64,000 bases of DNA from Thermococcus bergensis. Lineage in GTDB: Archaea; Methanobacteriota_B; Thermococci; Thermococcales; Thermococcaceae. A model generated the notes under the pieces. The model did no database searches and was not told the DNA's origin. It was given only the letters and a program-made list of their open reading frames with translations. The stretch covers positions 62,001-126,000 of the forward strand of contig NZ_JABFNK010000001.1 in NCBI RefSeq assembly GCF_020386975.1, read 5' to 3'. The position numbers and the translations under genes are program-made. Below are positions 1-19,646 of this stretch, one piece after another (the stretch's first letter is position 1; every line of letters begins with the position of its first letter).

Positions 1-799
1 ATTCCCAATTCCATACCTCGAGATGGAATACGTTGAAGGAGCTAAGATTGACGACAAAATTGTTCGGGACTTGGACAAATACCCCAAACCAGTTGACGAA
101 AATACCGCTTTAAAACTCATCGTAGGCATTGCTGAGGGTTTGAAACATGCTCACTCGAAAGGAATCTGGCATCTCGATTTAAAACCCCTTAATGTACTCC
201 TCAAACGTGACTTGACTCCCAAGATAACCGATTGGGGCTTAGCGAAAATAAGTACAAGGAGCTCTCTTTCAACCAACAGTGGCTACTCACCCCTTTACGC
301 AGCTCCAGAACAGCTTGACGAGGAGACTTATGGGGTTCCAGATCATAGAACCGACATTTATGGCCTTGGTATTATCTTCTACGAACTGTTAACTGGCAAG
401 CTTCCTTACGAGGGGTATTCACCAGGAGCAGTCGTTGGTAAGATTCTAGCAAAGGACATCAAGCCCACACCCCCATCGAAGATTAACCCTGCTTTAGCCA
501 AGTACGATGGAATCTTTGAGAAGCTTTTGGCAAAAAGAAAGGAGGATCGCTACCAGTCCATTGAGGAATTCCTACAAGCTTTAAACGCTCTGGAAGCCCT
601 CCACAAGGAGCGTGAAGAATTAAAGAAAAGCCTCAAAGAGACCAAGCAGACGCTAAAAAAGAGTCGCTCAAAGGGGGAGATCCAGAAGCTCACAAGAGAG
701 GCCGTTGAAAAAACTGCAAAAATTGCGCTTTTGAGTGCTAGGCTCAATGATAAGGCCGAGCTCTTAAATGCTCTCGAGGATTTGAAGTTTTACACAAAG

Positions 800-1731
800 A
801 CCCTAGTTCCCACCATCTGTGAAGTTGTATAATCTGTCCAGATTCACGGCCAGAATCGCCCCTAAAATCCTGACAACCAACCCCCTCAAACTAACACTCC
901 TGCTCGGCTTCAGAAGAAACTCAGAAAACTTCGAAAACAAAGTCTCAATCCTCCTGCGAAAGTCAGACAAGTACTTGTAAAACTTCTTCTCCTCCAGATT
1001 ACTAACCTGATTCTCCCGCTTCACCGGCGTGTAAACAACGCCAAACTTCAGGAATTCCTCCTGAAGTTCTCTACTAACGTAACCCTTATCCAAAAACAGA
1101 AAACAGCCAGAAAACTCCTCAACAATCACCCAGAACTTTTCCCTGACAACACTCACATCATGCTTATTCGCCGGATCAACAGACAGTAAAGCCAGCAAAT
1201 TTCCATCAGAGTAACAGGTCAGCTTGTACCCATAGTAAAACTTTTTTTAGAGGGAACAAACCCAACTGCGGGCTTTTCAGAGATGATTTCTGAAGAACCC
1301 TTCTTCTCCTTCCTGTTTTTTCTGGCCAACTCCTTGGTCTGAATGGGCTTTGAGTCCAGTATTCTAACGTATTCTCTGGCGTGTTTTTTGAATAATTCTT
1401 CCTGCGCTAGGAGCAGGAGTTTTTCGTGCCTGTTCAAGCGTTCTGTTAGTTTGTTGTACCTGATTTTTGGGAACAGCTTCATTTCTTCGATTAGGACTCT
1501 GTAAGCGTGCTTGTAAACTCCGTTAAAGTGCAAGTGTGCTAGTATTGCGAAGGTTATCAGGTCGTAGAGGCTGATTACTTCCCTGCGAGTGTTTTTCGGG
1601 TAGTGTTTGCTGATTATCGGATAGATTTCGGATTTTATGATCAGGATTTCCTGCTGAAAGTTCATAACAACCACCAATCAACCAAAAGACTTAAGTGCTT
1701 ATAACTCTAACGATCTAATGGGAACTAGGGT
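800..1731 (-). mobile_element. IS982-type insertion sequence, copy 1 (932 bp)
   Basis: The ends are inverted repeats ACCCTAGTTCCCA (left) and its complement TGGGAACTAGGGT (right). The element is flanked by the 7-bp target duplication CACAAAG. It carries one transposase on the minus strand, split at an A7 run, and is nearly identical to copies at 28452-29378 and 30096-31027. It sits inside the kinase gene at the left edge of the window. The 932-bp length, TSD and DDE motifs fit the IS982 family. The family name is from recognition, not from a database search. Confidence 0.88.
803..1665 (-). CDS. IS982-type transposase, two frames joined by a -1 shift
   Basis: This DDE transposase starts at ATG 1665 behind a GGTGG site; the longer GTG start four codons upstream is less likely. 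The first frame runs to a TGA just after a T7 run on the plus strand (1242-1248, A7 on the coding strand). The second frame, one base back, continues SFYYGYKLTCYSDGN and ends at the stop inside the terminal inverted repeat. Acidic residues are visible in ILDSKP, FLDKGY and RRIETLFS. Neither half alone carries the full DDE site, so activity needs -1 frameshifting or polymerase slippage at the A7. All three copies in this window share the site, so simple random decay is less likely. Total about 287 residues, normal for IS982. Confidence 0.8.
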
Positions 1732-1869
1732 CACAAAGGAGAACCTCGACGAGCTGTTGAATGCTATCTCTCAAGTTGAGGTTATGATTAAGGAAGCTAT
1801 TCCCCTTAGCGATGAATTTGTTGAAGGGCTTAAAGTTTTGCTCCCCAGAATTGAGAAGGAGGTTTAAAA

Positions 1870-3051
1870 ATGCCCGTAGATTTGTCCGGTCCGCTGTTGA
1901 GTGAATTTGAAAAAACAAAGAAAGAATTCGACAATGCCGTTTCCAAGGGGGATATGGAGACCGCAAAGAAAAAGGCCTTGAAATGTGCCAGCTTATTAAG
2001 ACAGCTTGCAAAACAAGTCCCATATAATGCCGAATTTTACTTGAAAAAGGCAAAAAAGTGGGAGAAAGTTGCCAAAGATATTGAGAGTGGAAACTTCGGC
2101 AAGAAAGCCGTTATCAGTGCCGAAGGTAAGAGAACTAAGGAAGAAGGTTCCGAGGAGGACGAGTTTAAAGAATATGTTAAAGGGCTGATAGCTAGATCAA
2201 ACGTCACTTGGGGAGACATAGGAGGGCTAGAAGAGGTAAAGGTCTTGATGATGGAGACTGTGGTTATTTCAGCTTTGCAGAGACCCCAAGCTATTCAACC
2301 GTGGAAGGGGATACTCCTCTTTGGGCCGCCAGGGACGGGTAAGACCCTTCTCGCTTCAGCAGCAGCAGGAAGTTTAAACGCCACATTCTTCAACGTTAAG
2401 GCTTCAAACGTCCTGAGCAAGTACTTCGGCGAGTCGAGCAAGATAATTTCCGCCCTCTACGAGGTTGCCCGCGAGAAAGCTCCGAGCATAGTGTTTCTCG
2501 ACGAGATAGATGCACTCACAACGAGGCGTTCCAACGACACGAGCGAAGCCACCCGAAGGATGCTCTCGACGCTTTTGACCGAGCTGGACGGATTCCAGGA
2601 CAAGGGAGGTGATTTGCTAGTTCTAACGCTAGCTGCCACAAACACTCCATGGGATCTTGATGAGGCAGTTCTCTCGCGCTTCCCGCGCAGGATTTACGTA
2701 CCTTTGCCAAATGAGAAGGCCACGAAGGAAATCATTAAGATTAACACCCGTGGATTGGACATTTCAAGGCTTGACTTGGATGCCATAGCTGAGGAAAGCG
2801 TGAGGAGGTTTTATTCTGGAAGGGACATAAGAAATCTCTGCCAGCAGGCCATATGGAACATGATAAGGGAGGAGAACAAGGACTTGCACAGGCTCGCTTC
2901 CCTGCCCTTCGAGGAGCTGAGGAAGCGCTCTTTGAGGACGAGGCCGCTTGAGATGAGGGACTTTGAGGAGGCCTTCAAGAAGATAAAGAGTCCGCTGACG
3001 CGGAAGGACATTGAGCGGTATGAGAAATGGGCGGAGGAGTTTGGGGGGTGA
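1870..3051 (+). CDS. MIT-like domain plus AAA ATPase, Vps4/katanin type
   Basis: This 393-residue ATPase is of the kind that disassembles ESCRT-III polymers. Residues about 5-75 form a helical hairpin repeat resembling an MIT domain. A charged linker follows, then one AAA domain from about residue 115, opening with WGDIGGLEEVK. Walker A is GPPGTGKT (about 150), Walker B IVFLDEID (about 206), sensor-1 region AATNTPWDL, and arginines RFPRR. The single AAA module and linker place it with the meiotic/Vps4 clade rather than Cdc48 or the proteasomal ATPases, although the closest family cannot be settled by eye. The start follows the upstream kinase stop by 2 bp. The first ~350 bases are more AT-rich than the rest. 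It shares the cluster with a Snf7-like protein at 9382, kinases and a phosphatase, which suggests a regulated membrane-remodelling role (inference). Confidence 0.85.
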   Translation: MPVDLSGPLLSEFEKTKKEFDNAVSKGDMETAKKKALKCASLLRQLAKQVPYNAEFYLKKAKKWEKVAKDIESGNFGKKAVISAEGKRTKEEGSEEDEFKEYVKGLIARSNVTWGDIGGLEEVKVLMMETVVISALQRPQAIQPWKGILLFGPPGTGKTLLASAAAGSLNATFFNVKASNVLSKYFGESSKIISALYEVAREKAPSIVFLDEIDALTTRRSNDTSEATRRMLSTLLTELDGFQDKGGDLLVLTLAATNTPWDLDEAVLSRFPRRIYVPLPNEKATKEIIKINTRGLDISRLDLDAIAEESVRRFYSGRDIRNLCQQAIWNMIREENKDLHRLASLPFEELRKRSLRTRPLEMRDFEEAFKKIKSPLTRKDIERYEKWAEEFGG

Positions 3052-3244
3052 GAGAATTTATCATTCAAAGGAAGAAAAGGAAGTGGGAAAATGAGACCAT
3101 ATGCCAAAAGGAATGAAGCTTACCGTTCTCTCTTTGTTGCTTTGTTTTTAGTAGTTGGTCCTTCACAAGATTGAGAGGGAAAAGGGATGCAAGCTATGAC
3201 ACACGTTGGGAGATGGAAATCAAAAAGTTTGGAGAGTAAGAAAA

Positions 3245-5485
3245 ATGAATAGGATTTTTGTTTTTGTTATCTTGTTGGCTGTGGCAATGTCTTGCATTCC
3301 CTTGGCCTCTGCAGGACTGGGCTCCCCCCAACTCAGCGTAAGCGTCAGTGTTTCTCCGAGCACCACATTACAGTGGGGAGATACGGCGACTCTTACAGTA
3401 ACTGTAAAAGAAACAGGAGGAGAGGACTGGGCGAATGATGTTACAGTAACTCCAGTAGTCCCCCAGGAGAGCAAAATCACTATTTCCCCTTCAAAGTCAC
3501 AACCGAAAGACATAAAGAGAAATGGATACGCGACTTTCACATTTACCATAAGAGTCCCAGAATATGAAGAGCCAGGGACAAAAACAATTACATTACTCAT
3601 TGAATATGGTGACACCGGAGCTGGTGACATCGGAGAATGGCGTTATACTATCGAAAGGTACGTTACGCTGACCATTAAAAAACCTCCAGCAACGCTAGCT
3701 GTGGAAACCACGCCAGATGGAGCTTCAGTATACATTAACGACGATTATAAAGGAACAACTCCACTAACTTTAACTCTCGAAGACGGTACATATGACTTAA
3801 AAATCACAAAAGACGGGTATGAAACAATCCAGGAAACCATAACGCTTTACCCCGGCAAGACGATTACCATAACACGTGAACTTAAACCTTTGCCGGCAAC
3901 ATTGACTATAAAGACAACGCCAGAAGATGTTTCAGTATATGTTAATGGGGTGTATAAAGGAAAGACTCCGCTAACTCTCACATTGGAGCCAGGCACATAC
4001 AATTTAAAGCTTGAAAAAGAAGGCTATGAGACGATTCAGATTACTACTACGTTATCACCTGGTGAAACAGGGACTATAACGCGACAACTCAGATCCCTCC
4101 TATCAACGACAACAGCAAAGCAGCAGCAATCCACGAGGTCACCCCAATCTCTCCAGAGTGCCGCTTTAAGAGTTGACAACGAAAGAGCGATCTTAGCAGG
4201 TCTGGGAGCTGTCATTATAATGGGGATACTAGTGGTGATTTCCAGGAAAAAGAGAGCACGGAAAGATAAGAAAACTGTCAAAGAAGCAAAAGAGCTTTTC
4301 CCTTCACAACTGCTCAAGAAGTACGAACCCCTCGAATTTCTCGGCGAAGGAGGATTCGCCAAAGTTTTCAAAGCTAAGCGTAAAAGCGACGGTAAAATAG
4401 TTGCTGTAAAAATCCCCCGCATAGATGAAAGCACAAGCAAGGTCTTCCTGAGAGAAGTAGGTACGTGGCTCCACTTGGATCACCCAAACATTGTCAAACT
4501 CTATGAGGCAGACATCCTACCGGTCCCCCATCTGGAAATGGAGTTCGTTGAAGGTGTTGATCTCAACGGGAAAACAATTAGATCCTTGGAAGAATACCCC
4601 AAGCCCACTGAGGAAGGCCTTGCACTCAAATTTACCAAGGGCATTACCCAGGCCGTGAAATATGCCCACTCCCAGAACGTTCTCCACAGGGATATTAAGC
4701 CATTAAACATCCTCCTCAAGCACGATTTAACGCCAAAGTTAACCGATTGGGGGCTTTCAAAGATAGGAGTCACCACCTCTTCGAAGACCGCCGCTGGCTA
4801 CACGCCACTGTATGCGGCTCCGGAACAGTTGCTGCCGAGCCAGTATGGCCACACCGACTACAGAACTGACCTATACCAGATCGGAGCGGTACTTTACGAA
4901 CTATTAACGGGACGGCCACCTTATGAGGGCCACTCCCCGGCGGAGTTGATAGGGAAAATAACCGACCCGGACTATATTCCAAAGAAGCCCAGTGAGTTCA
5001 ATCCAGAGCTCTACATTTTCGATAGTTTCTTTGAAAAGGCGCTGGCAAAGAGAAAAGAGGATCGCTTCCAAAGTGCCGACGAGATGTTACAGGCTCTTGA
5101 AGAGCTTGAAAGGCTTGTTAAGAAAAGAAAAGAACTCAAAGAAACTGTGGCAGAACTCAAGAAGACACTAAACAAGAGCCAACTGGAGCTGAAGAAGAGT
5201 AAAAGCACAGAAGAGGCTAAGCTGAAAACTCTCGAAATTCTTGACCTTTACCAGAAACTTGCCGCGCTTTACTGCGAGCTCAATTCGAAATCGGAGCTAT
5301 TAGAGATTCTTGAAAGCTTGAAGTACTATACGAGAAAGGATGACCTAAAGAGAGATCTCGAAAAAGCCGAAGAATACCTGAGATCATACATCGAAGAGAA
5401 CCTTCCAATTGGAGAAGAGTTCGCCCAGAAGCTCAACGAGCTGATCTCTCACATAAAGGCTGAAGTGAAGGGGGGCAGTTTATGA
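3245..5485 (+). CDS. Receptor-like Ser/Thr kinase with signal peptide and two PEGA domains
   Basis: The start is ATG 3245 behind GGAGAG; residues 1-24 form a signal peptide ending near ASAG. The exterior has an Ig-like region (about 25-145) and two PEGA repeats (about 149-214 and 219-285; both contain the core SVY-N-YKG-TPL). A Thr/Gln/Ser-rich stalk follows, then one membrane helix (about 314-334) and a basic stop-transfer. The cytoplasmic kinase domain (about 360-625) has FLGEGGFAKVF, Lys in VAVKIP, HRDIKPLN and DWG instead of DFG. A coiled coil and a C-terminal helical region shared with the kinases at 1 and 7267 end the protein. It overlaps the PEGA phosphatase gene by 4 bp (ATGA), so the two are translationally coupled. 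It probably senses cell-wall or membrane-surface state and phosphorylates cytoplasmic partners (inference). Ligand unknown. Confidence 0.9.
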   Translation: MNRIFVFVILLAVAMSCIPLASAGLGSPQLSVSVSVSPSTTLQWGDTATLTVTVKETGGEDWANDVTVTPVVPQESKITISPSKSQPKDIKRNGYATFTFTIRVPEYEEPGTKTITLLIEYGDTGAGDIGEWRYTIERYVTLTIKKPPATLAVETTPDGASVYINDDYKGTTPLTLTLEDGTYDLKITKDGYETIQETITLYPGKTITITRELKPLPATLTIKTTPEDVSVYVNGVYKGKTPLTLTLEPGTYNLKLEKEGYETIQITTTLSPGETGTITRQLRSLLSTTTAKQQQSTRSPQSLQSAALRVDNERAILAGLGAVIIMGILVVISRKKRARKDKKTVKEAKELFPSQLLKKYEPLEFLGEGGFAKVFKAKRKSDGKIVAVKIPRIDESTSKVFLREVGTWLHLDHPNIVKLYEADILPVPHLEMEFVEGVDLNGKTIRSLEEYPKPTEEGLALKFTKGITQAVKYAHSQNVLHRDIKPLNILLKHDLTPKLTDWGLSKIGVTTSSKTAAGYTPLYAAPEQLLPSQYGHTDYRTDLYQIGAVLYELLTGRPPYEGHSPAELIGKITDPDYIPKKPSEFNPELYIFDSFFEKALAKRKEDRFQSADEMLQALEELERLVKKRKELKETVAELKKTLNKSQLELKKSKSTEEAKLKTLEILDLYQKLAALYCELNSKSELLEILESLKYYTRKDDLKRDLEKAEEYLRSYIEENLPIGEEFAQKLNELISHIKAEVKGGSL

Positions 5486-7083
5486 AAAAAGCCGTTTTAT
5501 TGGCTTTTTTATTTTTACTTTTCAGCAATTTTGTTGGGGCAGGGGTTATTGAAGTTATTACCTCTCCAGAAAACGCCAGTGTATACGTTAATGACAAATA
5601 CTACGGCCAAAGTCCGTTAAATATCCCAATAAACCCAACAGGAAGACACTACGAATTGATTATTGAAGTTAAAAAAGAGGGATATTTACCAGAAAATAGA
5701 ACACTACCCATATCTCCTGATATTTTTGATGCTCCCATACCAGTTGAATTTAACCTAACCCCATTAAACGGAACACTTTACGTCTGTTCTAACCCATCCC
5801 ATGCTCCTGTTAAAATAATTGGAGTTAACGGTTATGAATTTGTTGGCAAAACTCCACTCAATGTCTCTTTAAAACCTGGAAACTACACCATAGAAATTAT
5901 ATTGAAGGACTACCTGCCACATTCAACTCGCGTAGAGATTTTACCTAATGAAACGGAATCTCTATCAATTGATCTAATTCCACTTAATGGAACCTTGGTA
6001 ATAATGTCAGAACCCACTAATGCTTCAGTTTACATAAACGGGTCATTTAAAGGCAATACACCCCTAAATCTGAGTGTAGAACCAGGAAAATACATTATCA
6101 ATGTCACAAAAGACAACTCCTGGAATGCCACATCTATCATAATTAATCCAAACAAAACATATTCTATCCACCTAATAATCCCAAAGAAAGGCCTGCCACT
6201 GGGGTTAATTTTGGTAATTCTTCTCGTGATTGTAGGAGGTGGAGTAGGGGTTTATTTCACGAAGTTCAGAAAAGATAGAGGAGAAAGAGTTAATCATAAA
6301 GAGCAGGAAAGAGCTCTAAAAAACATCCTTTCAAACACAGTCAAACCTTACATGACCATGAAAACCCCAGATGAAAGGACCTTCGGCATGAGTCACGTGG
6401 GGGGAAGAGAGAACAACGAAGACAACCTGCTCGTCCTCAAGCTCCAGGATGCATGCCTTTTGGCTGTCGCCGACGGCCTCGGTGGGCACAACGCGGGAGA
6501 GGTAGCGTCGAAGATAGCAGTGGATACCCTAAGGGAGGTCTTCGAAGAAGAGTATTCCCCAGGAATGAGTGATAAAGAGGTCAAAGAACTTCTCATGAAG
6601 GCCTATGAGGAAGCCCATAGGAGGATAAAAGAGAGCGCCGTTGGAGAAAGGGAGGGCATGGGGACGACCCTCGTGAGCGCCTTTGTTAGAGACGGGAAGG
6701 CTATAATAGCGAACACCGGCGACAGCAGGGCTTATCTGATACGGGATGGGAAAATCCTCGAGAGAACCAAAGACCACTCCCTCGTGCAGGAGCTTTTGGA
6801 CAAGGGCGAGATAACCGAGGAAGAAGCCAAAAGGCACCCGATGAGGAACATAATCACGAAGGCCCTCGGGGTAGACTTCGGCGTTGACCTCTACGAGTGG
6901 GAGATTCGAGAGGGTGACATTTTGCTCCTCAGCTCCGACGGACTGCACGACTACGTTGACGAGGGAAGAATTATTGAGATAACCTCAAAAGGGAAAAGTG
7001 CTGAAGATATTGTAAGAGAGCTGATTGATGCTGCTCTGCCCGTTACGAAGGATAACGTGACGGTGGTTTGTTTGAAACTATGA
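5482..7083 (+). CDS. Membrane PP2C-type phosphatase with three PEGA domains
   Basis: This 533-residue protein has a signal peptide (1-20), three PEGA-like repeats outside (about 22-90, 95-165 and 170-235), a membrane helix (about 237-259), and a cytoplasmic PPM/PP2C Ser/Thr phosphatase domain (about 300-532). Metal-site motifs are present: ENNEDN, ADGLGGHNAGE, GMGTTL, NTGDSRAYLI, LLSSDGLHDYV and DNVTVV. It overlaps the upstream receptor kinase by 4 bp. Kinase and phosphatase have the same kind of ectodomain, so they could read the same surface cue with opposite outputs. The PEGA part is AT-rich, whereas the phosphatase part from about 6380 is clearly GC-richer, which suggests domain swapping at the membrane boundary. 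Confidence 0.9.
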   Translation: MKKAVLLAFLFLLFSNFVGAGVIEVITSPENASVYVNDKYYGQSPLNIPINPTGRHYELIIEVKKEGYLPENRTLPISPDIFDAPIPVEFNLTPLNGTLYVCSNPSHAPVKIIGVNGYEFVGKTPLNVSLKPGNYTIEIILKDYLPHSTRVEILPNETESLSIDLIPLNGTLVIMSEPTNASVYINGSFKGNTPLNLSVEPGKYIINVTKDNSWNATSIIINPNKTYSIHLIIPKKGLPLGLILVILLVIVGGGVGVYFTKFRKDRGERVNHKEQERALKNILSNTVKPYMTMKTPDERTFGMSHVGGRENNEDNLLVLKLQDACLLAVADGLGGHNAGEVASKIAVDTLREVFEEEYSPGMSDKEVKELLMKAYEEAHRRIKESAVGEREGMGTTLVSAFVRDGKAIIANTGDSRAYLIRDGKILERTKDHSLVQELLDKGEITEEEAKRHPMRNIITKALGVDFGVDLYEWEIREGDILLLSSDGLHDYVDEGRIIEITSKGKSAEDIVRELIDAALPVTKDNVTVVCLKL

Positions 7084-7100
7084 AGAAGGAGGATTAAAGA

Positions 7101-7172
7101 TATGAAGGTGGTTTTGCCAAAGTTTACTTGGCTTATGAATTTCATGGGAAAAAGATATTGAGCATTAGATGG
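7101..7172 (+). pseudogene. Kinase glycine-loop fossil
   Basis: In one frame this stretch reads YEGGFAKVYLAYEFHGKK, a near match to the kinase G-loop (GEGGFAKVFKAKRKSDGK) of the neighbouring genes. No start, no conserved Lys motif and no downstream kinase sequence follow. It appears to be the remnant of another kinase copy deleted between the phosphatase and the next kinase. The rest of the 183-bp gap (7084-7266) shows only the GGAGGTG ribosome binding site of the next gene. Confidence 0.55.
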
Positions 7173-7266
7173 TTATTAGAAGGTGTTTTAATGCCCCCAA
7201 TAAAAAACTTTTGGAGTCAAAAACTTATACTCTTTGTAAACTTGGAGATCTTGGAGGTGTAGCACA

Positions 7267-9351
7267 ATGAAAGAAACCTCAAGATCGCAAATCTTGGCTT
7301 TTGCTTGGTTCTTGATCTCGTTTATAGTTGTTTCAGTCCTGTTTTTCACTTCACTTCTTGAAGATTCACTGCTCAGATATATCTGGTGGTTGTTGAGTAT
7401 AGCGGCCTCGATATTGGTGGCAAAAAACGGAAAAAAGACGGAAGGTAAAACCTTTGCAATACTGGCGATTCTTTCGGGAGTATTCTTCCTAGGTCTTCAT
7501 TTGGTTTTGGTCTATCTGGTCGTAAAGTGGATAGAAAGAATGGGAAACTTCGGCATCCAAACAAATGCACTAGAACAAAAAGCTGGAGAAGCCCAAAAGA
7601 CAACAAGTCCGGAAATAAAGGGAAAACACTCACTAAGTAAATCAGAAATTAGACCAGAACGGTTATTACCTACAAAGAGAGAAACACACCTAAAATCCCT
7701 TTCTGGTTTTCTGCCAGAGCTCCTCGATAAGTACGAACCTCTAGAATTTCTTGGCGAGGGCGGCTTTGCTAAAGTATTCAAAGCCAAAAGAAAAAGCGAT
7801 GGTAAGATAGTGGCTGTGAAAATCCCAAGGATTGATGAGAAGACGAGCAGAACGTTTATACGAGAAGTATCAACTTGGCTTCACTTAGATTACCCAAACA
7901 TTGTCAAACTCTATGACGTGGACATTCTGCCAGTCCCACATTTGGAAATGGAGTATGTTGAGGGCGTAAAACTTGGGGACAAGATAATTAGGGATTTGGA
8001 TAAATATCCAAAACCTGTTGAAGAAAACACTGCCTTAAAACTCATCAAGGGCATTGCTGAAGGATTGGCTTACGCACACTTTAAGGGTATCTACCACCGC
8101 GATCTAAAGCCCCTCAACGTCCTCCTAAAGAGCGATTTAACTCCCAAAATCACGGATTGGGGACTGGCAAAAATAGGAACCATGAGTTCTGGCAGAAGCG
8201 TGTTGGGTTATACGCCACTCTATGCTGCCCCTGAGCACTTGCTTCCCGGTAAGTACGGGCACACAGATGCGAGAACAGACATCTGGCAGTTGGGAGTAAT
8301 TTTCTATGAGTTGTTAACTGGAAAACTCCCGTTTGAGGGATATACTTACGAGGAAATCTTTGGAAAAATCGTGGATGAAAGCTACAAATTCACTCCACCC
8401 TCAGAAATCAACCCTGAGCTTGCTAAGTACGATGGAATCTTTGAGAAACTCCTCGCTAAGAGGAAGGAAGACCGCTACCAGTCAGTTGAGGAGTTCCTCA
8501 AAGACCTTGAGAATCTTGGGGAGGCTAAGAAGAGGAAGGCAGAGCTAGAAAAAGAGGCCGAGGAGCTTAAGAAGTCCTTGTCAAGGAGTGTCGCGGCACT
8601 AAAGCAAAGCAAGAGCACCGAAGAGGCCATCAGGAACAGGAGGATGGTCGTTGAAACCCTTGGAAAGCTGGCTCTAGTCTACGCTGAACTCAACAGGAAG
8701 GCTGAGTTACTCAACACGCTCAACGATCTCAAGTTCTACACGGTGCAAAACCTGAACGACCTCCTCAACGCCATAAACACCGTTGAAACCCTGCTCAAGG
8801 AGAACCTACCTGTGGGTGGGGACTTCATCGAAAGGCTAAAGGTTCTGGTCCACAACATCAAACGAGAAAATGAAGAGATAGTTATCGTAAAACAACCCCC
8901 ACAAAAAGAGAAAAAATCAGCCAAAAAAGAGGACTGTAGAGAATATCCCTCTAGGGTAATACCTATTGAAAAAGCCAGACATTCTCTGAGATCAAAAATT
9001 AGAGCGATACATGTTTGCCTTGATGGAAGATGGCATAGACTTGAAATTCCTGGCGGATATTGGAGCCAGACACTTAGAACAGTTGCAGAGTTCCTGATTG
9101 ACAAGGGATTCCGAAACCTTCAAGTTGACAGGTTTATTGAAGACAGGCCTGAAAAGTTGGTAAGAGGAGATGGTGCTTGGGATAAGATAGATGGGTGGTA
9201 CATATATCGCCCCCGTCCTTCTGAGGCCATTGACAAGCTTATAGAGCTTCAAAGAAACCTAGGTCAGAGATATCCAGATAGAGCCGTCAAATTTGCTTTA
9301 GAAATGTCTCAACCTCAAACATATACAACTTCAAAGTTTTATATTGTATGA
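7267..9351 (+). CDS. Multi-pass membrane Ser/Thr kinase with an extra C-terminal domain
   Basis: The start is ATG 7267 with GGAGGTG upstream. Residues about 10-29, 36-52 and 63-89 are three hydrophobic helices, and there is no large ectodomain. After a basic linker the kinase domain (about 158-420) shows FLGEGGFAKVF, VAVKIPRID, HRDLKPLN (about 276) and DWG (about 296). A coiled coil and the helical region ending in LPVGGDFIERL follow. From about residue 540 a Lys-rich linker leads to a further ~150-residue domain (IRAIHVCLDGRWHRLEIPGG, GWYIYRPRP) that I do not recognise and that the other kinases lack. That part is AT-rich. The kinase core is very close to those at 1 and 3245, so the family expanded by local duplication with exchange of sensor ends. 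Confidence 0.88.
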   Translation: MKETSRSQILAFAWFLISFIVVSVLFFTSLLEDSLLRYIWWLLSIAASILVAKNGKKTEGKTFAILAILSGVFFLGLHLVLVYLVVKWIERMGNFGIQTNALEQKAGEAQKTTSPEIKGKHSLSKSEIRPERLLPTKRETHLKSLSGFLPELLDKYEPLEFLGEGGFAKVFKAKRKSDGKIVAVKIPRIDEKTSRTFIREVSTWLHLDYPNIVKLYDVDILPVPHLEMEYVEGVKLGDKIIRDLDKYPKPVEENTALKLIKGIAEGLAYAHFKGIYHRDLKPLNVLLKSDLTPKITDWGLAKIGTMSSGRSVLGYTPLYAAPEHLLPGKYGHTDARTDIWQLGVIFYELLTGKLPFEGYTYEEIFGKIVDESYKFTPPSEINPELAKYDGIFEKLLAKRKEDRYQSVEEFLKDLENLGEAKKRKAELEKEAEELKKSLSRSVAALKQSKSTEEAIRNRRMVVETLGKLALVYAELNRKAELLNTLNDLKFYTVQNLNDLLNAINTVETLLKENLPVGGDFIERLKVLVHNIKRENEEIVIVKQPPQKEKKSAKKEDCREYPSRVIPIEKARHSLRSKIRAIHVCLDGRWHRLEIPGGYWSQTLRTVAEFLIDKGFRNLQVDRFIEDRPEKLVRGDGAWDKIDGWYIYRPRPSEAIDKLIELQRNLGQRYPDRAVKFALEMSQPQTYTTSKFYIV

Positions 9352-9381
9352 GTAATACTACCTACGAGAATGGAGTGTGAT

Positions 9382-9951
9382 ATGATGGTCCGCCTCTGGA
9401 AGTCTAAAGAGGAAAAGGAAATTGAAAGAAAGGTTAGAATGCGTAAGGCAAAAATGGCCCTCCAACAATACATAAACAACCTCGAGAATTTTAAGCACAG
9501 GGTGTTTCTGCAGGGGAAGGAGGCTGCCAAGCTTGGAGATGAAGCCCTGTTAAAGAGAAGTGCTGTCAAATACCTCGCATTAGAGCAGAGGATAAAACAG
9601 GCAAAGCGTCTCTTGCTGTTAATGGAAGAGGCCGAGCTTCAGAGAGAGTTAGTAAAAGTTTCCGCCGATTTTATTCAATTTAGCAAGGATATAGTGGCAA
9701 GCATTGCGGAAGGTCCTGGGGCAGAGGACGTGGCAAAAATTCAGGTGGAGTTTGAGAAGGCCATGGGCAAGGTAGAAAACATTGATGAAGCTTTAAACAC
9801 AATGCTAGACTTAACTAGTGAAAGCATATTGACGGGTAATTTTGACGTTGAGACCATTGAGGCTGCAGAAGAGCTTATAGTTTCCTCCGCGGGAAGGGAG
9901 CTCGAGCCTGGAAAACGGCTTAAGGAAATAGAGGACATGATGCGGGAGTAG
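9382..9951 (+). CDS. Snf7/ESCRT-III-like helical protein (also resembles PspA-type coiled coils)
   Basis: This protein of about 189 residues begins at ATG 9382, six bases after GGAG. It is almost wholly helical. A basic N-terminus (KSKEEKEIERKVRMRKAK) leads into long heptad-like helices, then a more acidic region with KAMGKVENIDEALNTML, and a short C-terminal helix. The order basic N-half, acidic C-half and terminal helix is that of Snf7/ESCRT-III proteins. The last residues (ELEPGKRLKEIEDMMRE) partly match the MIM1 motif bound by MIT domains: RLxxI is present and an acidic residue lies upstream, but the middle Leu is Pro. Together with the MIT-AAA gene at 1870 this suggests a polymer-disassemblase pair. 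PspA/IM30 relatives share the fold, and I cannot exclude that branch without a profile search. Confidence 0.6.
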   Translation: MMVRLWKSKEEKEIERKVRMRKAKMALQQYINNLENFKHRVFLQGKEAAKLGDEALLKRSAVKYLALEQRIKQAKRLLLLMEEAELQRELVKVSADFIQFSKDIVASIAEGPGAEDVAKIQVEFEKAMGKVENIDEALNTMLDLTSESILTGNFDVETIEAAEELIVSSAGRELEPGKRLKEIEDMMRE

Positions 9952-9980: not shown

Positions 9981-12807
9981 ATGAGGAGGGCACTGGCGCT
10001 CGTAATGATACTTCTCGTCCTGACAATCGTGCCAGCGGCCAAGGCCGAGGGGAGGCCGGATTTGTGGGCGAAGACTTACGGGGGAAGCAGTTATGATGAG
10101 GCTTACGCGGTTGCTATAGCTCCAAACGGGGACATTATTGTTGCAGGCTGGACTGTAAGCTTCGGCGCTGGTTATAAAGATGTTTGGGTTCTCAGGCTCG
10201 ATGAGAACGGGGAGCTTCCTTACTCTGATATGGTCAAAGATTCCAGCGCCGAAGTTGAAGCCACAAACGCCGATATAGGAAACAAAAATGCTGAAATTGA
10301 GACTCCGGATGTCGTGGTAAAGTCCACGGACGTCAATCCCAGGGATTCCAACGCAAATATTGAGACGCAGTACTCAAAGTACGACCAAGCCCTCAAAGCC
10401 ATAAAAAACGCCGAGGGCTTCCTCTCGGATTCAAAAACCCTTGGACAGGCAAAGGCCGCCTTTGAAAAAGGAGATTACGTTACAGCCTACCAGCTCGCTA
10501 TGAAGGCAGAGCAGGCGAAGAAGACGAGGCAAACGCTTTTTGCCCTCATGCTTATCGCGTTAGCTGGGGCCGTTGCGGGAATGTACTACCGTTCTCAGAA
10601 AAAAGAAAGAAGCGGAGCGCCTGCGCGGGGAAGTCAAGAGTGCCATTGAAGAGGCAAGGAAGCTCAGGGCTGAGGGGAATTTAATCAAAGCCGCCGAAAA
10701 ACTCAAAGTGGCCCTTGAAAAGGCCAGAAACCTCGGGGATGTTAAGGCCGAGGTCGAGCTTGAGCTCTCGAAGCTCGGGGAAGAGCTTTCAAAGGCACTC
10801 TCTCAGGGGGACGCTCTTCTCGCCGAAGGCAAGTATGCTGAGGCCATAAAAGCCTACGAGTCAGCCCTTCCGCTCGCCCAAGCCCTCGGAAGGGAGAAGG
10901 AAGTCAAAGAAAAGATATCCCTGGCCGAGAGGAAGGCCGAGGAGGACAAGAAGAGGAGGGAGCTTGAGAAGCTCCTCGCCGAAATCAGTGGGGCGGTTGA
11001 GAGGAAGGACTACGAGAGGGTCAAAGAGCTGATGGACAATGTCGAACCGCTCGCAAAAGAGCTAAACGCTGAAAGAAAGCTTGAAGCTATTAAAGCCGAG
11101 CTGAAGACGAGGCTTGAGAACCTGACGGCGAGGGCAAGGGAGGAGGAGCTCTCGGGCAACTACTCCCAGGCTTTGGCACTCTACACCGAGGCATTAAGCA
11201 TAGCGGGTGTTATAGGAGAAAGCGGAGGGGAGATAAGAAAAGCCATAACGACCATAGAGGAGCGCCAGATGGAGGAGCTCCTCAGGAAGAGTGTGAGGAT
11301 AGAGGTTCCGAGCGAAATGGCCCACAAGGCCGAGAACGAGGTGTCAATACTCGTTACCAACCGCTTCTCCGGTGACATAAGTGTAAGCGTTGACCTGAGC
11401 GCCAACAGGGACTACTTCGAGCTGAGCGAGGAGAAGGTGGAGTTCCCGAGGGTGAAACCGGGCAAGACGATAGGCGAGGACGTTACAGTTAAGCCCAAGT
11501 TCCTCGGCGAGTTTGACTTCACCGTTAAGGTGAACTCCAGCGCCGGGAGCTTCGAGAAGAGGGTCCCCGTTAAGGTCGTGAAGACCGCAAGGGCTGGGGC
11601 AACGCCAACGCCGACCCCGGTGACCTCCACCCCGGTTATCAACCCGGTTGAGAGCTTAACCGAGCTTTATTCTGAGATGCAGTACATCGGGGAGGGCGGC
11701 TTCGCCAGGGTTTACAAGGCGAAGAGAAAGGACGGAAAGGTAGTCGCTGTCAAAATCCCCAAGACTCTCGACCCGGCCATCGGTAGGGCCTTTGTGAGGG
11801 AGATAAGCAACTGGCTCCACCTGAAGCATTCGAACATCGTTGAACTCTACGACGTGAACGTCATCCCGATCCCCTACCTTGAGATGGAGTACTGCGAGAG
11901 CTCCCTGGCCAAGCTTCCCAAGCCACTACCCCTCGAGGAGGCCTCGCTCATAGTCTTCAACATCGCGGAAGGATTGAAGTACGCGCACTCCAAGAAGATC
12001 GTACACCGTGACCTTAAGCCGAGCAACGTGCTCCTAAAGAACGGCCTCCCGAAGATTTCCGACTGGGGATTGAGCAAAGTCCTTGAGGAGAGCATGAGCG
12101 CGACAACGACGGCAAGCTTCACGCCCTTCTACGCCGCCCCGGAGCAGATCGACAGGAAGTTCGGGCACACCGACGAGAGAACCGACATCTGGCAGCTGGG
12201 TGTAATCTTCTACGAGCTCGTTACCGGAAGGCTTCCCTTCGAGGGCTCACTAAGCCAGGTGATGATGGGCATAATCAGGGACGACCCGGTTCCACCGAGC
12301 GAAATAAACCCAGAGGCGAAGAAAGTCGAGCCGATAATAATGAAGATGCTCGCTAAGAGGAAGGAGGAGCGCTATCAGAGCATCGAGGAACTCCAGAGAG
12401 ACCTTGCGGGAGTGCTCAACCTGACTTATTCGGAGAGCCTGAAGAAGAGCAAGACAATGGGGGACGTTAGGAGAGCAGCGTATTACCTCACCGAGCTCCT
12501 CCTCATCAACATGAAGACGAACAACGTTGGGGAAGCTTACAAATACGCAACCGACCTCGTTCTCTACGCCAGGGGCGAGCTCAAGGACGAGGTCAGAAAG
12601 CTAGCGGAGCAGCAAAAACTAAAAGAAAAAACAAATTATGAGAGTTTTAAAATTAATGGCAATGAGGCGAGAAAATTCAGTCAAAGGGAACTCAAAAAGC
12701 TATTTGAAGAGTGTTTAAAATCCAACGGAGCCATAATTAGCTTAAAAACTGAAGAACAAGAAGCCATTATCTTCATTCCTATTCGAGAGGACCTGGAGTG
12801 GAATTAA
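9981..12807 (+). pseudogene. Receptor-like Ser/Thr kinase, frameshifted at an A6 run
   Basis: The first frame (9981-10649) gives a signal peptide (about 1-23), one beta-propeller-type repeat (KTYGGSSYDEAYAVAIAPNG), a low-complexity stalk with N/D/E repeats, a helical segment, and a membrane helix at about 185-203. It shifts at A6 (10599-10604): removing one A joins it to the second frame (open from 10573), which starts in KKKEAERLRGE. The second frame holds TPR-like helical repeats (10606-11270), a beta-sandwich (about 11290-11580), a Pro/Thr linker, a kinase domain (YIGEGGFARVY, HRDLKPSN, DWG) and an AT-rich tail after about 12610. A single propeller repeat is too few for a closed blade set, so the ectodomain is probably shortened. 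A sequencing error, a real mutation or slippage could each explain the shift. The C-terminal frame could still be translated from 10573. Confidence 0.75.
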
Positions 12808-13396: not shown

Positions 13397-13571
13397 GTGG
13401 TTCTCTTTTTCATTTTTTATTTTAACGGGGGTGAACTCAGAACTAAGCTCGCAACTTTTTAAATTAAGAGCTTTACTGTTCTGAATTTTCCAGTGAAAAC
13501 AACGGAATTTTAAAAGAAAAAAGAAAAACCACTCGTCACTTCCTGCACTTGTGAATATTTTTTTGTACCCC

Positions 13572-15788: not shown

Positions 15789-18700
15789 ATGTATCGGCTT
15801 GTTGGAGAAATTGAAAGTAATCTTAAAGAGCTTAAACCTGATATGGGAACAGAGGAAGCAATAAACTATTTTAGAAATATTTTCATTGATGCGTGGAAGT
15901 TCAATTATGTTGATGAGATCATCCCTGAGGACATGCTTAATGAATTTGTGGCACAAAACACTGATATGATTAAAATCATTGCAAAAACAAACCCGCCTGA
16001 AGGTGAGAGTTTCTACGTTGTCTACGCTAAAAGTAAAAGTGACACCATAAAATACAGACAAAGACTTGTTAAGGATCTTCTCGACTTCACGTATTCAGTT
16101 GGATTGGAATTCGCGAATTTTCTGATAATCTTGGACTACTCAAAATACTGGAAGCTTGTAGTTCCAATCTACAGGAGAGAGCTTGAAAATGCCAAGCTCA
16201 ATATCTATGTAATTGACCCAGAGGAGGGAAAATTCAGGACTCTTGTGAAGAACTTGGCCAGTGTTGCTCAGGAGCTTGAAGAATTTTACAAGAAATCGAA
16301 AAAGCATCCACCGGCAATCCAAATAAAAGCCCTCATAGATGAATACATGCACGTTAGGCCTCTTACAGAGGAGTTTTTCAAGGAGTACAAAGAGTACTAT
16401 TCCAAACTTAAGGACTCAATAAAAAAGCGTTACGGGAAAAAACTTGGGGAATCTTATGTTGGCGAGTTGCAAAAAGAGATATTTGTTGAAAGAGCCGCCA
16501 AGACCTTTGCTCATACATTCCTCAACAGATTAATGTTTGTCTATTTCCTTCAAAAGAAAGGATGGATTGTCGAGAAACCAGCTCTCAGGAAGGATCTACA
16601 GGAGAGTGTTGACGTCAAAAACTTCGTCAGATGGCTGTATGAGCAGTGGGTGGAGTATGGAGGGGAGTTTTACAAGGATTACCTTAGAATTTTGTTCCTT
16701 TATGCAATGAATACGCCAAGAGTGGGATATGCAAGAAGGGATATAAAGGAAATACAAGCGATTCCATCCCCAATAGTTAGGGACGTGTTCACCTACGGGA
16801 TTCCCTATTTCAACGGTGGTCTGTTCAACCATGTTACAATAGAGGGCATTGATTTGGACGAGATCATAACTTCCCTTCCAGATAACGTTGTGAAAGAACT
16901 TATATTTGATTTCTTTGAAGAATACAGCTTCACAGTTACGGAAGATACTCCCTATGAAGTTGAGGTTGCTGTTGATCCAGCAATGTTAGGAAGAATTTAC
17001 GAGTCACTTATAACCGCCGAAGAGCAGGCTGGAAGTGAGGAAGAGGAGAGAAGAGCATCAGGAATCTTCTACACGCCGAGGAGCGAAGTTGACTTCATGT
17101 GCAGGATGGCAATTTATGAGTATTTGAAGAAGAACACCAAAGTTGATGACGTTCTTCTAAGGGAGTTCGTGTTTACGCCGCTTCATGAATGGGAAGGAAG
17201 GTCACTACCAAGGGAACTACTCAGTGCTCTCGAGAGCGTTAAGATAGTCGATCCAGCAGCTGGAAGCGGAGCTTTTCTCGTGGGAATGTTTCATCTTTTA
17301 ACGGAACTCTACGAAAAGGCTAGGGTAAAGGTAGATTATGAAAGAAAGCTCGCTATAATCAGGGAGAACATCTACGGCGTTGACATCAAAGAGTGGGCGA
17401 TAAGGGTTGCCAAGCTCAGGCTTTGGCTGGCATTGATTGAAAAGGAAGAAGAGAGTCCAAACGAACCAATTTTACCAAATCTCGAGACGAAGTTAGCAGT
17501 TGGCGATTCACTTGTGCCTCCTCACTTTGTTCTTAGAATAAATGGGAAGAAAAGGATAATCGAAATACCCCTTGCCAAATTTAGAGAGAGTCTCAAGCTC
17601 CTTTGGGCTAAAAAGGGTGCGGGTGAAGCAATAGTCCATTACAAAGATCTAGTGAGAAAGTACTTCATGGGTGAAAAAATTGATGGAAAGCCTGTGAAAT
17701 TAAAAGATATCGAGGAAGCTAAATGGGGAGCTCTTCAGGAGTTCCTAGAGACAGCACTTGAAGAAGATTTAAAGGCCAAGGAGAAGAAGGAAATAAAGCT
17801 GCTCTTAGAAGCGGTATCAAAGCAGGATTACTCGGCTCTGGAAAAACCACCATTCATCTGGGAACTTGATTTTCCCGATGTGATGCTCGAAAAGAAGGGC
17901 TTTGACATAGTAATAGCAAATCCGCCCTACGTGAGGCAGGAAAAGATTTATCCAGAGTATTACGACTTGGCAGAGTTTCAGATGCTTCCAAAGAAAGAAC
18001 AGGATAGATTAAAGAAGGAATACAAGGAGAAGATAATCGAGCATATGAAGACAATAATCAAAGAGAAGTTTGAGCACGAGATGAAGCTGAACAAGAGGAG
18101 CGATTTATATGTTTATTTCTTCATCCAAGGTGTCAACCTGCTCAACCCCAAAGGAGCTCTAGTGTTCATTACCTCCAACTCATGGCTTGATGTTGATTAT
18201 GGAACATCTCTGCAGGAGTTCTTCCTGAGGTTCACGAACTTGAAGAGGATTATTGACTACACGACAAGGTCTTTTGAGCAGGCCGATGTAAATACCGTAA
18301 TCACCGTGCTAACTAGAAAACCCAAAGAGCTGTTTAACACCGTTGATGAGGGTTGTGTGAACTTTGTCCTCCTAAAGAGGAGCTTTGATGAACTGAGCCG
18401 TGAAATAATAGAAAAGATGCTCGAATGTTATGCCGGAAAAGTTAAGGAAGTCGAAGTCTTCGGAGGAAAAGTATACTCCTACGAGGACGATGACATCAGG
18501 GTGAGGAGCGTCAAAGCTGTAGAGCTCGCAAAGATGGGCGGGCTTGAGATAGGTACAAAGAACCTCCTGCTCGGCTCCTACAACGTCTTTGGTGAATACA
18601 AAGGTATGAAGTGGGGCGGGATACTCATAAGGGCTCCAAGGATATTCTACGTGATCCTCGACAAGGGGAAGGACAAGCTTGTAAGACTAGAGCGGATTGC

Positions 18701-19646
18701 AGATGTTACTAGAGGATTCACAACGGGAGCGAACGAGTTTTTCTACCTTGAGCCGATAAGGAACCCGGTAGAGTGGCCGGTGTGCAAAATCTGCGGCAGA
18801 GTCCATGAGCCGGGAGAGGGTTTGGTAGCCGTCAAGAATAAGGCGGGATGGGAGGGTTACATTGAGGGGGAGTTTCTGAAACCCCTGATTAAAAGTCCCA
18901 AGGATCTAAAGCATCTCATTGTAAAACGTGAAGATCTAACAATGATGGTGTTTATGTGCGATATCTCTCCAACTAACCTTGAGAATGAGTACTTCCATGC
19001 GTTTAACTATGTCCAATGGGGAGAGAGCAACAAATATCACTTACGTCCAACAGTTAGAGGTCGTAAATATTGGTATTCACTACCAGAACTTAGACCTCCT
19101 CAAATATTAATCCGACAATTCTTCAATCACAAATTTGACAGTCCGTACAATCCAAACTATTACCCCACTGACCATACCTTTTATTATCTTACTAGCATAC
19201 CTCAAGAGCAGGAGGAGGTCATAGCTGCAATACTAAATTCGACAATCACAGCGCTATTGATCGAGTTGTTGGGGCGTAAAAACATGGGAGAGGGCGTTTT
19301 AACTTTGTATGGGCCAGAGTGGAGGAATTTGCTAGTTGTGGATGCGAATCTGCTAAATAGTATCCAACATAGAAGGCTAGTACAAGCCTTCGAACAGATG
19401 GCCAACCGCGAAATCAAGTCCATCTTCGAGGAACTCGGCCTTCCAAAGCCAAACAGAGACTTCAGCAACATCAACCCAGAGGACGTCTCCCTCGACAAGG
19501 TTCTCCCCGACAGGCGCGAGCTTGACAGAGTGATCTTTGAGGCGCTTGGCCTTACGGAGGAAGAGCAGCTTGAGGTCTACAGGGCGGTTGTCGAGCTCGT
19601 GAAGGCGAGGCTGGTGAAGGCGAAGACGTTTTCGAAGAGGAGGTAG
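15789..19646 (+). CDS. Type IIG-like restriction-modification enzyme, Eco57I-type methylase
   Basis: This 1285-residue single-chain enzyme carries the gamma-class N6-adenine methyltransferase motifs: FYTPRSE (motif X region), DPAAGSGAFLVG (motif I, about 488), IYGVDIKEWAIRVAKLRLW, NPPYVRQ (motif IV, about 711), and a downstream TaqI/Eco57I-like specificity region with a CxxC pair (CKICGR). The N-terminal ~200 residues (FYVVYAKSKSDT, FLIILDYSKYWK) could be a degenerate PD-(D/E)XK nuclease, but I cannot place a full catalytic set. No separate REase or S subunit adjoins it, which favours type IIG. A phage-exclusion methylase such as PglX is an alternative, but no pglZ or brxC is in view. GGGGGTAT precedes ATG 15789. 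It converges on the HEPN-MNT pair with 66 bp between. Confidence 0.8.
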   Translation: MYRLVGEIESNLKELKPDMGTEEAINYFRNIFIDAWKFNYVDEIIPEDMLNEFVAQNTDMIKIIAKTNPPEGESFYVVYAKSKSDTIKYRQRLVKDLLDFTYSVGLEFANFLIILDYSKYWKLVVPIYRRELENAKLNIYVIDPEEGKFRTLVKNLASVAQELEEFYKKSKKHPPAIQIKALIDEYMHVRPLTEEFFKEYKEYYSKLKDSIKKRYGKKLGESYVGELQKEIFVERAAKTFAHTFLNRLMFVYFLQKKGWIVEKPALRKDLQESVDVKNFVRWLYEQWVEYGGEFYKDYLRILFLYAMNTPRVGYARRDIKEIQAIPSPIVRDVFTYGIPYFNGGLFNHVTIEGIDLDEIITSLPDNVVKELIFDFFEEYSFTVTEDTPYEVEVAVDPAMLGRIYESLITAEEQAGSEEEERRASGIFYTPRSEVDFMCRMAIYEYLKKNTKVDDVLLREFVFTPLHEWEGRSLPRELLSALESVKIVDPAAGSGAFLVGMFHLLTELYEKARVKVDYERKLAIIRENIYGVDIKEWAIRVAKLRLWLALIEKEEESPNEPILPNLETKLAVGDSLVPPHFVLRINGKKRIIEIPLAKFRESLKLLWAKKGAGEAIVHYKDLVRKYFMGEKIDGKPVKLKDIEEAKWGALQEFLETALEEDLKAKEKKEIKLLLEAVSKQDYSALEKPPFIWELDFPDVMLEKKGFDIVIANPPYVRQEKIYPEYYDLAEFQMLPKKEQDRLKKEYKEKIIEHMKTIIKEKFEHEMKLNKRSDLYVYFFIQGVNLLNPKGALVFITSNSWLDVDYGTSLQEFFLRFTNLKRIIDYTTRSFEQADVNTVITVLTRKPKELFNTVDEGCVNFVLLKRSFDELSREIIEKMLECYAGKVKEVEVFGGKVYSYEDDDIRVRSVKAVELAKMGGLEIGTKNLLLGSYNVFGEYKGMKWGGILIRAPRIFYVILDKGKDKLVRLERIADVTRGFTTGANEFFYLEPIRNPVEWPVCKICGRVHEPGEGLVAVKNKAGWEGYIEGEFLKPLIKSPKDLKHLIVKREDLTMMVFMCDISPTNLENEYFHAFNYVQWGESNKYHLRPTVRGRKYWYSLPELRPPQILIRQFFNHKFDSPYNPNYYPTDHTFYYLTSIPQEQEEVIAAILNSTITALLIELLGRKNMGEGVLTLYGPEWRNLLVVDANLLNSIQHRRLVQAFEQMANREIKSIFEELGLPKPNRDFSNINPEDVSLDKVLPDRRELDRVIFEALGLTEEEQLEVYRAVVELVKARLVKAKTFSKRR

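Follow-up and report, generated by a model that had tools for sequence, protein, structure and literature searches.

The DNA analysed here is a 64-kb window (G000:C1:62001-126000) of the 2.08-Mb genome of Thermococcus bergensis (G000). It contains only the right half of an ESCRT locus that begins ~10 kb upstream of the window, at G000:C1:52120, and ends at about window position 13400. A sequence-only reading of the window had described a co-directional cluster of a Vps4-type ATPase, an ESCRT-III-like protein, receptor kinases and a PP2C phosphatase; all of these genes are present and co-directional (Table 1), but that reading covered only part of the locus. In the region upstream of and into the window (L001, G000:C1:50001-64500), the genes share one direction, and the first three encode a helical protein of 244 aa, a protein of 174 aa and a coiled-coil protein of 611 aa. 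Next come E3a and E3b (helical proteins of ~200 aa) and, on the opposite strand, a copy of an insertion sequence (IS). A multi-TM kinase and a TIR protein (L001:9534-10244, G000:C1:59534-60244; 60 bits with TIR_2) follow, and the last gene is that of a beta-propeller kinase, which extends into the window (826 aa as read, start at G000:C1:60352). Besides these two upstream kinases and the TIR protein, the locus also holds a TPR kinase downstream. Beside it, at window positions 15789-19646, lies a 1285-aa protein that resembles a type II enzyme uniting restriction and methylation (NPPY motif).

Table 1. Features of the ESCRT locus within the window (window coordinates unless stated).
Feature	Position	Strand	Basis and remarks
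Beta-propeller Ser/Thr kinase, 3' part	1..799	+	Kinase domain and first half of tail; Pkinase 148 bits
Insertion sequence, IS982-like by eye, 932 bp	800..1731	-	Ends ACCCTAGTTCCCA/TGGGAACTAGGGT; transposase in two frames
Severed second half of kinase tail	1727..1867	+	Profile positions 58-104 at G000:C1:63727-63867; ends just before Vps4 start
Vps4-type AAA ATPase, 393 aa	1870..3051	+	MIT-like N-terminus ~1885-2085; AAA 2311-2706; Vps4_C 2914-3045
Receptor Ser/Thr kinase	3206..5485	+	Signal peptide, two PEGA, TM, kinase 4322-5089, tail ~5174-5470
Membrane PP2C phosphatase, three PEGA domains	5482..7083	+	Overlaps stop of preceding kinase gene
Membrane Ser/Thr kinase	7267..9351	+	TM hairpin, kinase, tail 8563-8877, extra C-terminal domain
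E3c, ESCRT-III-like, 189 aa	9382..9951 (likely start 9385)	+	Snf7 match, profiles, AF2, Foldseek
E3c C-terminal helix, RLKxIExMM, MIM1-like	9907..9945	+	Conservation; AF2 helix 176-188, last-block pLDDT 92
Receptor kinase remnant	9981..10649	+	Signal peptide, delta-60 beta-propeller repeat, TM
TPR/CARDB Ser/Thr kinase, truncated tail	10573..12807	+	Different frame from 9981-10649
Protein of unknown family, 172 aa	12878..13396	+	End of co-directional run; no Pfam match

The ATPase has a single AAA domain (136 bits) and a Vps4_C oligomerisation domain (35.4 bits against a cut-off of 21.3), both above their Pfam cut-offs. Its N-terminus is modelled by AF2 as three helices (residues 6-25, 29-49 and 51-72; pLDDT mostly 78-92). 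A profile of 80-aa N-termini from homologues of this Vps4 aligned in hhalign with the MIT N-termini of CdvC proteins (probability 90%, E 1.5e-6, 70 columns), the references coming from other archaea with a TACK-like gene layout, where they are encoded beside evident ESCRT-III genes; the kinase tail and ESCRT-III profiles described below gave no such alignment. The Pfam MIT model has no match in the whole genome and is by itself too narrow for this N-terminus. The AF2 model of the whole protein (4 sequences) has a low-confidence AAA core, so that its Foldseek matches mainly restate the sequence, and only the N-terminus was usable. The ATPase is a Vps4-type AAA with an MIT-type N-terminus, as the sequence-only reading had it.

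Snf7 is the only meaningful Pfam match of E3c (E 0.0011, 19.1 bits, under the cut-off of 27.3), and 6 sequences in a set of eleven E3 proteins match this family, the best with an E of 2.3e-4. A profile was built from twelve ESCRT-III sequences of other archaea, each over the Snf7 cut-off; run against every ORF of the surveyed loci, it gave E3c and E3b proteins the first twelve places. AF2, from five sequences (mean pLDDT 79), predicts an alpha1-alpha2 hairpin and further helices (9-51, 54-108, 114-150, 156-169 and 176-188), and the two best Foldseek matches of this model are CdvB of S. islandicus (prob 0.99, E just 0.08); phmmer found no match to E3c in the PDB. Its close relatives on named contigs come mostly from Thermococcus/Thermococci MAGs. 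E3a and E3b are evidently paralogous (99%), and in profile comparison E3a reached known ESCRT-III proteins solely via E3b, with no direct link detected. The sequence signal is weak. By the model, its Foldseek matches and the profile matches, E3c is a divergent ESCRT-III protein with a Snf7-type helical fold, and the ESCRT interpretation in the sequence-only reading is mostly right.

After an otherwise variable linker, RLxxIE is retained at the C-terminus of 20 of the 22 E3c homologues. The motif in E3c agrees at ~4 of 6 positions with the MIM1 consensus. The last helix thus fits a MIM1-like motif, which would make it a candidate partner of Vps4. Where no E3c was seen in a locus, a comparable helix is present at the end of some E3a proteins, e.g. 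EELFKRLEKE.

Could the locus be no more than an unrelated coiled coil that happens to lie beside a Cdc48-like AAA? The sub-threshold Snf7 score would allow this, as would the NCBIfam models, which score the ATPase alike: CdvC gives 206, below its cut-off of 650, and CDC48 slightly more. The alignment to CdvC N-termini and the specific ranking of E3c by the ESCRT-III profile argue otherwise. So does a tree, unrooted and with long branches, in which the window Vps4 groups (100/100) with Vps4 proteins from loci of this kind in distant archaea and is separate from both CdvC and CDC48; the sole other close Vps4 relative in the T. bergensis genome is CDC48. Finally, the order 174-aa protein, coiled coil, E3a, E3b, kinase, Vps4, kinases, PP2C, E3c was found again in more than 20 Thermococcaceae genomes, a linkage beyond chance, and the core is shared by archaea further removed (L171-L173). 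The matches obtained thus did not come down to unrelated coiled coils and a non-MIT hairpin, and the synteny that the sequence-only reading had proposed to survey is kept. Accidental linkage is scarcely credible and already largely refuted.

The core of the locus is constant, and the ectodomains of its kinases are highly variable. In compact loci there is a single kinase with a single PP2C. In expanded loci the kinases number up to seven, and PEGA, beta-propeller, lectin and TPR domains are found among them. The distribution is patchy: the 174-aa marker gene occurs in 26 of 61 sampled family genomes, so that more than half are without it. Nine compact loci (L048-L054, L066, L067) are flanked by a metal P-type ATPase on one side and a DUF302/Met-rich protein on the other (DUF302 by Pfam). 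In one genome, G044, such a metal island (L187:4134-12473) has a tail-bearing kinase only and the expanded ESCRT locus is elsewhere; the island kinase may therefore act in trans. In some expanded loci E3c is directly followed by another Vps4-like ATPase, which is shorter and has an MIT-like N-terminus of its own (L057 in G039, L021:8051-9205, L087 in G088). Several expanded loci are adjoined by an SPFH/stomatin-like gene and a small gene for a TM protein, NfeD-like on inspection (L073/L074 in G087, L076/L077 in G089, L021:13072-14482).

In the window, Pkinase scores 152 bits, with PEGA at 127 bits, in the gene at 3206-5485 and 162.7 bits in that at 7267-9351, and the phosphatase scores 228 bits with the NCBIfam Stp1 model, whose cut-off is 230. 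C-terminal to the kinase domain, a module of ~100 aa is common to 72 of 77 locus kinases, a count that is partly true by construction because the tail profile was seeded from locus kinases. The profile identified the tail at 3206-5485, and the genome's best match (147 bits) is the tail at 7267-9351, itself in the seed. Searches independent of the seed covered whole genomes, the TIR proteins and distant kinases. Among the 61 family genomes the tail is present in all 26 with the 174-aa ESCRT marker and in 3 of the 35 without it (Fisher 3e-14, a value that overstates independence since the genomes are related); two of these three show fragments only and one an orphan kinase. Several genomes encode further tail kinases far from the locus, and the kinases of L171-L173 are also tail-bearing. 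The tail domain is probably already known, since Makarova et al. (2024; PMC10936438) describe a small C-terminal PCI-like helical domain on the membrane STKs of ESCRT loci; the co-occurrence test and the link to TIR proteins are additions of the present analysis.

The copy of the locus in T. bergensis has been damaged. The IS in the window, bounded by a 7-bp target duplication (CACAAAG, at 793-799 and 1732-1738), splits the tail of the kinase preceding Vps4; the first part of this tail (profile positions 1-62) lies at window 617-802. Its twin at L001:6506-7437 is 98.6% identical over 932 bp, and G005 has an empty site there. The two copies, both with 7-bp target duplications, enclose the genes of the multi-TM kinase, the TIR protein and the propeller kinase. 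Downstream, the remnant at 9981-10649 aligns with the N-terminal portion of a receptor kinase that is intact in G041 (1528 aa), and 10573-12807 is 67% identical to residues 850-1499 of the same protein; these alignments suggest that the two are pieces of a single receptor kinase, frameshifted and with an internal deletion. With one kinase tail split by the IS and this frameshifted pair, the T. bergensis copy thus has an intact core and at least two damaged sensors.

The TIR protein ends in part of the kinase tail: the proteins of T. bergensis and G005 carry its last half (E 2.5e-6) and that of G081 (L081:12403-13182) most of it (59 bits). Strong matches to this protein were found in these three of the 61 genomes only, always inside the ESCRT locus. 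A literature search on TIR and archaeal ESCRT gave nothing relevant, and the main text of PMC10936438 makes no mention of TIR. It may be that the locus serves a conflict or stress response, in which ESCRT remodelling would be put to use by a TIR effector and the sensor kinases, either in defence or in response to damage. The tail-bearing TIR proteins, the patchy occurrence of the locus and the IS elements in it would agree with this, but the reading is improbable, as a TIR protein is present in just three of the genomes and distant archaea lacking TIR share the core. A broader proposal, tentative and rather unlikely in our view, is that the tail is a general plug through which many surface sensors, including the TIR protein and distant kinases, feed one ESCRT machine. 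If true, this would be an archaeal signal-integrating, possibly immune, membrane-remodelling hub.

We consider it likely that the locus encodes signal-gated ESCRT membrane remodelling or cargo sorting under kinase/PP2C control, and not a cell division apparatus. E3a, E3b and E3c would assemble at the inner membrane surface, with the upstream coiled-coil protein probably positioning them, and the MIT-like bundle of Vps4 would dock on the MIM1-like helix of E3c and disassemble the polymer. Receptor kinases with PEGA, beta-propeller or lectin ectodomains would sense outside conditions, plug into the machinery through their shared tail and phosphorylate ESCRT parts or cargo, which PP2C would reverse. 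Alternatively, the kinases could mark cargo rather than regulate ESCRT, with phosphorylated membrane proteins being recognised and sorted. For phosphorylation-linked systems, such cargo of phosphoproteins has been suggested by Makarova et al. (2024; PMC10936438), who also suggest a key role of phosphorylation in function, and variable ectodomains around a constant core would suit such a role. We nevertheless think it somewhat unlikely, as a Pfam scan of this locus revealed no FHA or other phospho-binding domain and the shared tail suggests that the kinases dock on the machinery itself.

ESCRT membrane remodelling outside Thermoproteota and Asgard archaea is, as far as we found, so far a prediction. 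How Thermococcales form their vesicles is not established, according to PMC10117752; a 2021 review described this order as being without ESCRT-III and mentioned unpublished work in T. kodakarensis in which disruption of any of three Vps4 homologues left vesicles unaffected. The locus joins ESCRT with kinases at the cell surface, with a phosphatase and, in some genomes, with a TIR protein, and Thermococcaceae include genetically tractable species, so that control of an archaeal ESCRT system by phosphorylation is testable.

With the Cdv system of Thermoproteota the locus shares the core families Vps4/CdvC and ESCRT-III/CdvB, from which a Cdv-like role in cell division might be supposed. Unlike Cdv, it has kinases and a phosphatase, no CdvA was noticed in it, and more than half of the family genomes do without its marker. 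The genome has three FtsZ/tubulin-family genes, by which division would be covered; a division role was accordingly rejected, and we regard it as very improbable. The Halo_FHA ESCRT systems are similar in combining ESCRT with an STK and an STP, and differ from this locus, where no FHA domain was found.

The closest likeness is to the euryarchaeal 'Main clade' of ESCRT systems (Makarova et al., 2024, mBio, PMC10936438, which cites earlier work on these systems by Makarova et al., 2010). The sequence-only reading had taken such machinery to be best known from groups other than Thermococcales, and its coupling to transmembrane Ser/Thr kinases to be new, but both are already in that paper, which places Thermococcales in this clade and reports membrane-anchored STKs and STPs in their ESCRT loci. 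Our locus is probably a member of the clade, and its kind is not new. Vps4 and ESCRT-III lie in one locus, the membrane STKs have a small C-terminal helical domain and are accompanied by an STP, and upstream are a coiled-coil protein and a small partner, in a clade of which Thermococcales are named members. According to the same paper, arCOG09748 (coiled coil and winged helix) and arCOG08177 (Cas2-like and TBP folds) mark the 'Main clade'; our two upstream proteins match these in description, layout and order, an assignment made by description and not by number, and their profiles gave just generic coiled-coil (apolipoprotein) or chance matches in the PDB and Pfam. We did not find the tail co-occurrence, the tail-bearing TIR inside the locus or the metal-transport island setting of compact loci in the main text of PMC10936438. 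Beyond that text, some of it perhaps listed in the supplements, the loci described here have up to seven kinases, a third ESCRT-III protein (E3c) after the kinase/phosphatase block, in some genomes a second Vps4-like ATPase, a tail-bearing TIR protein and an IS-broken kinase.
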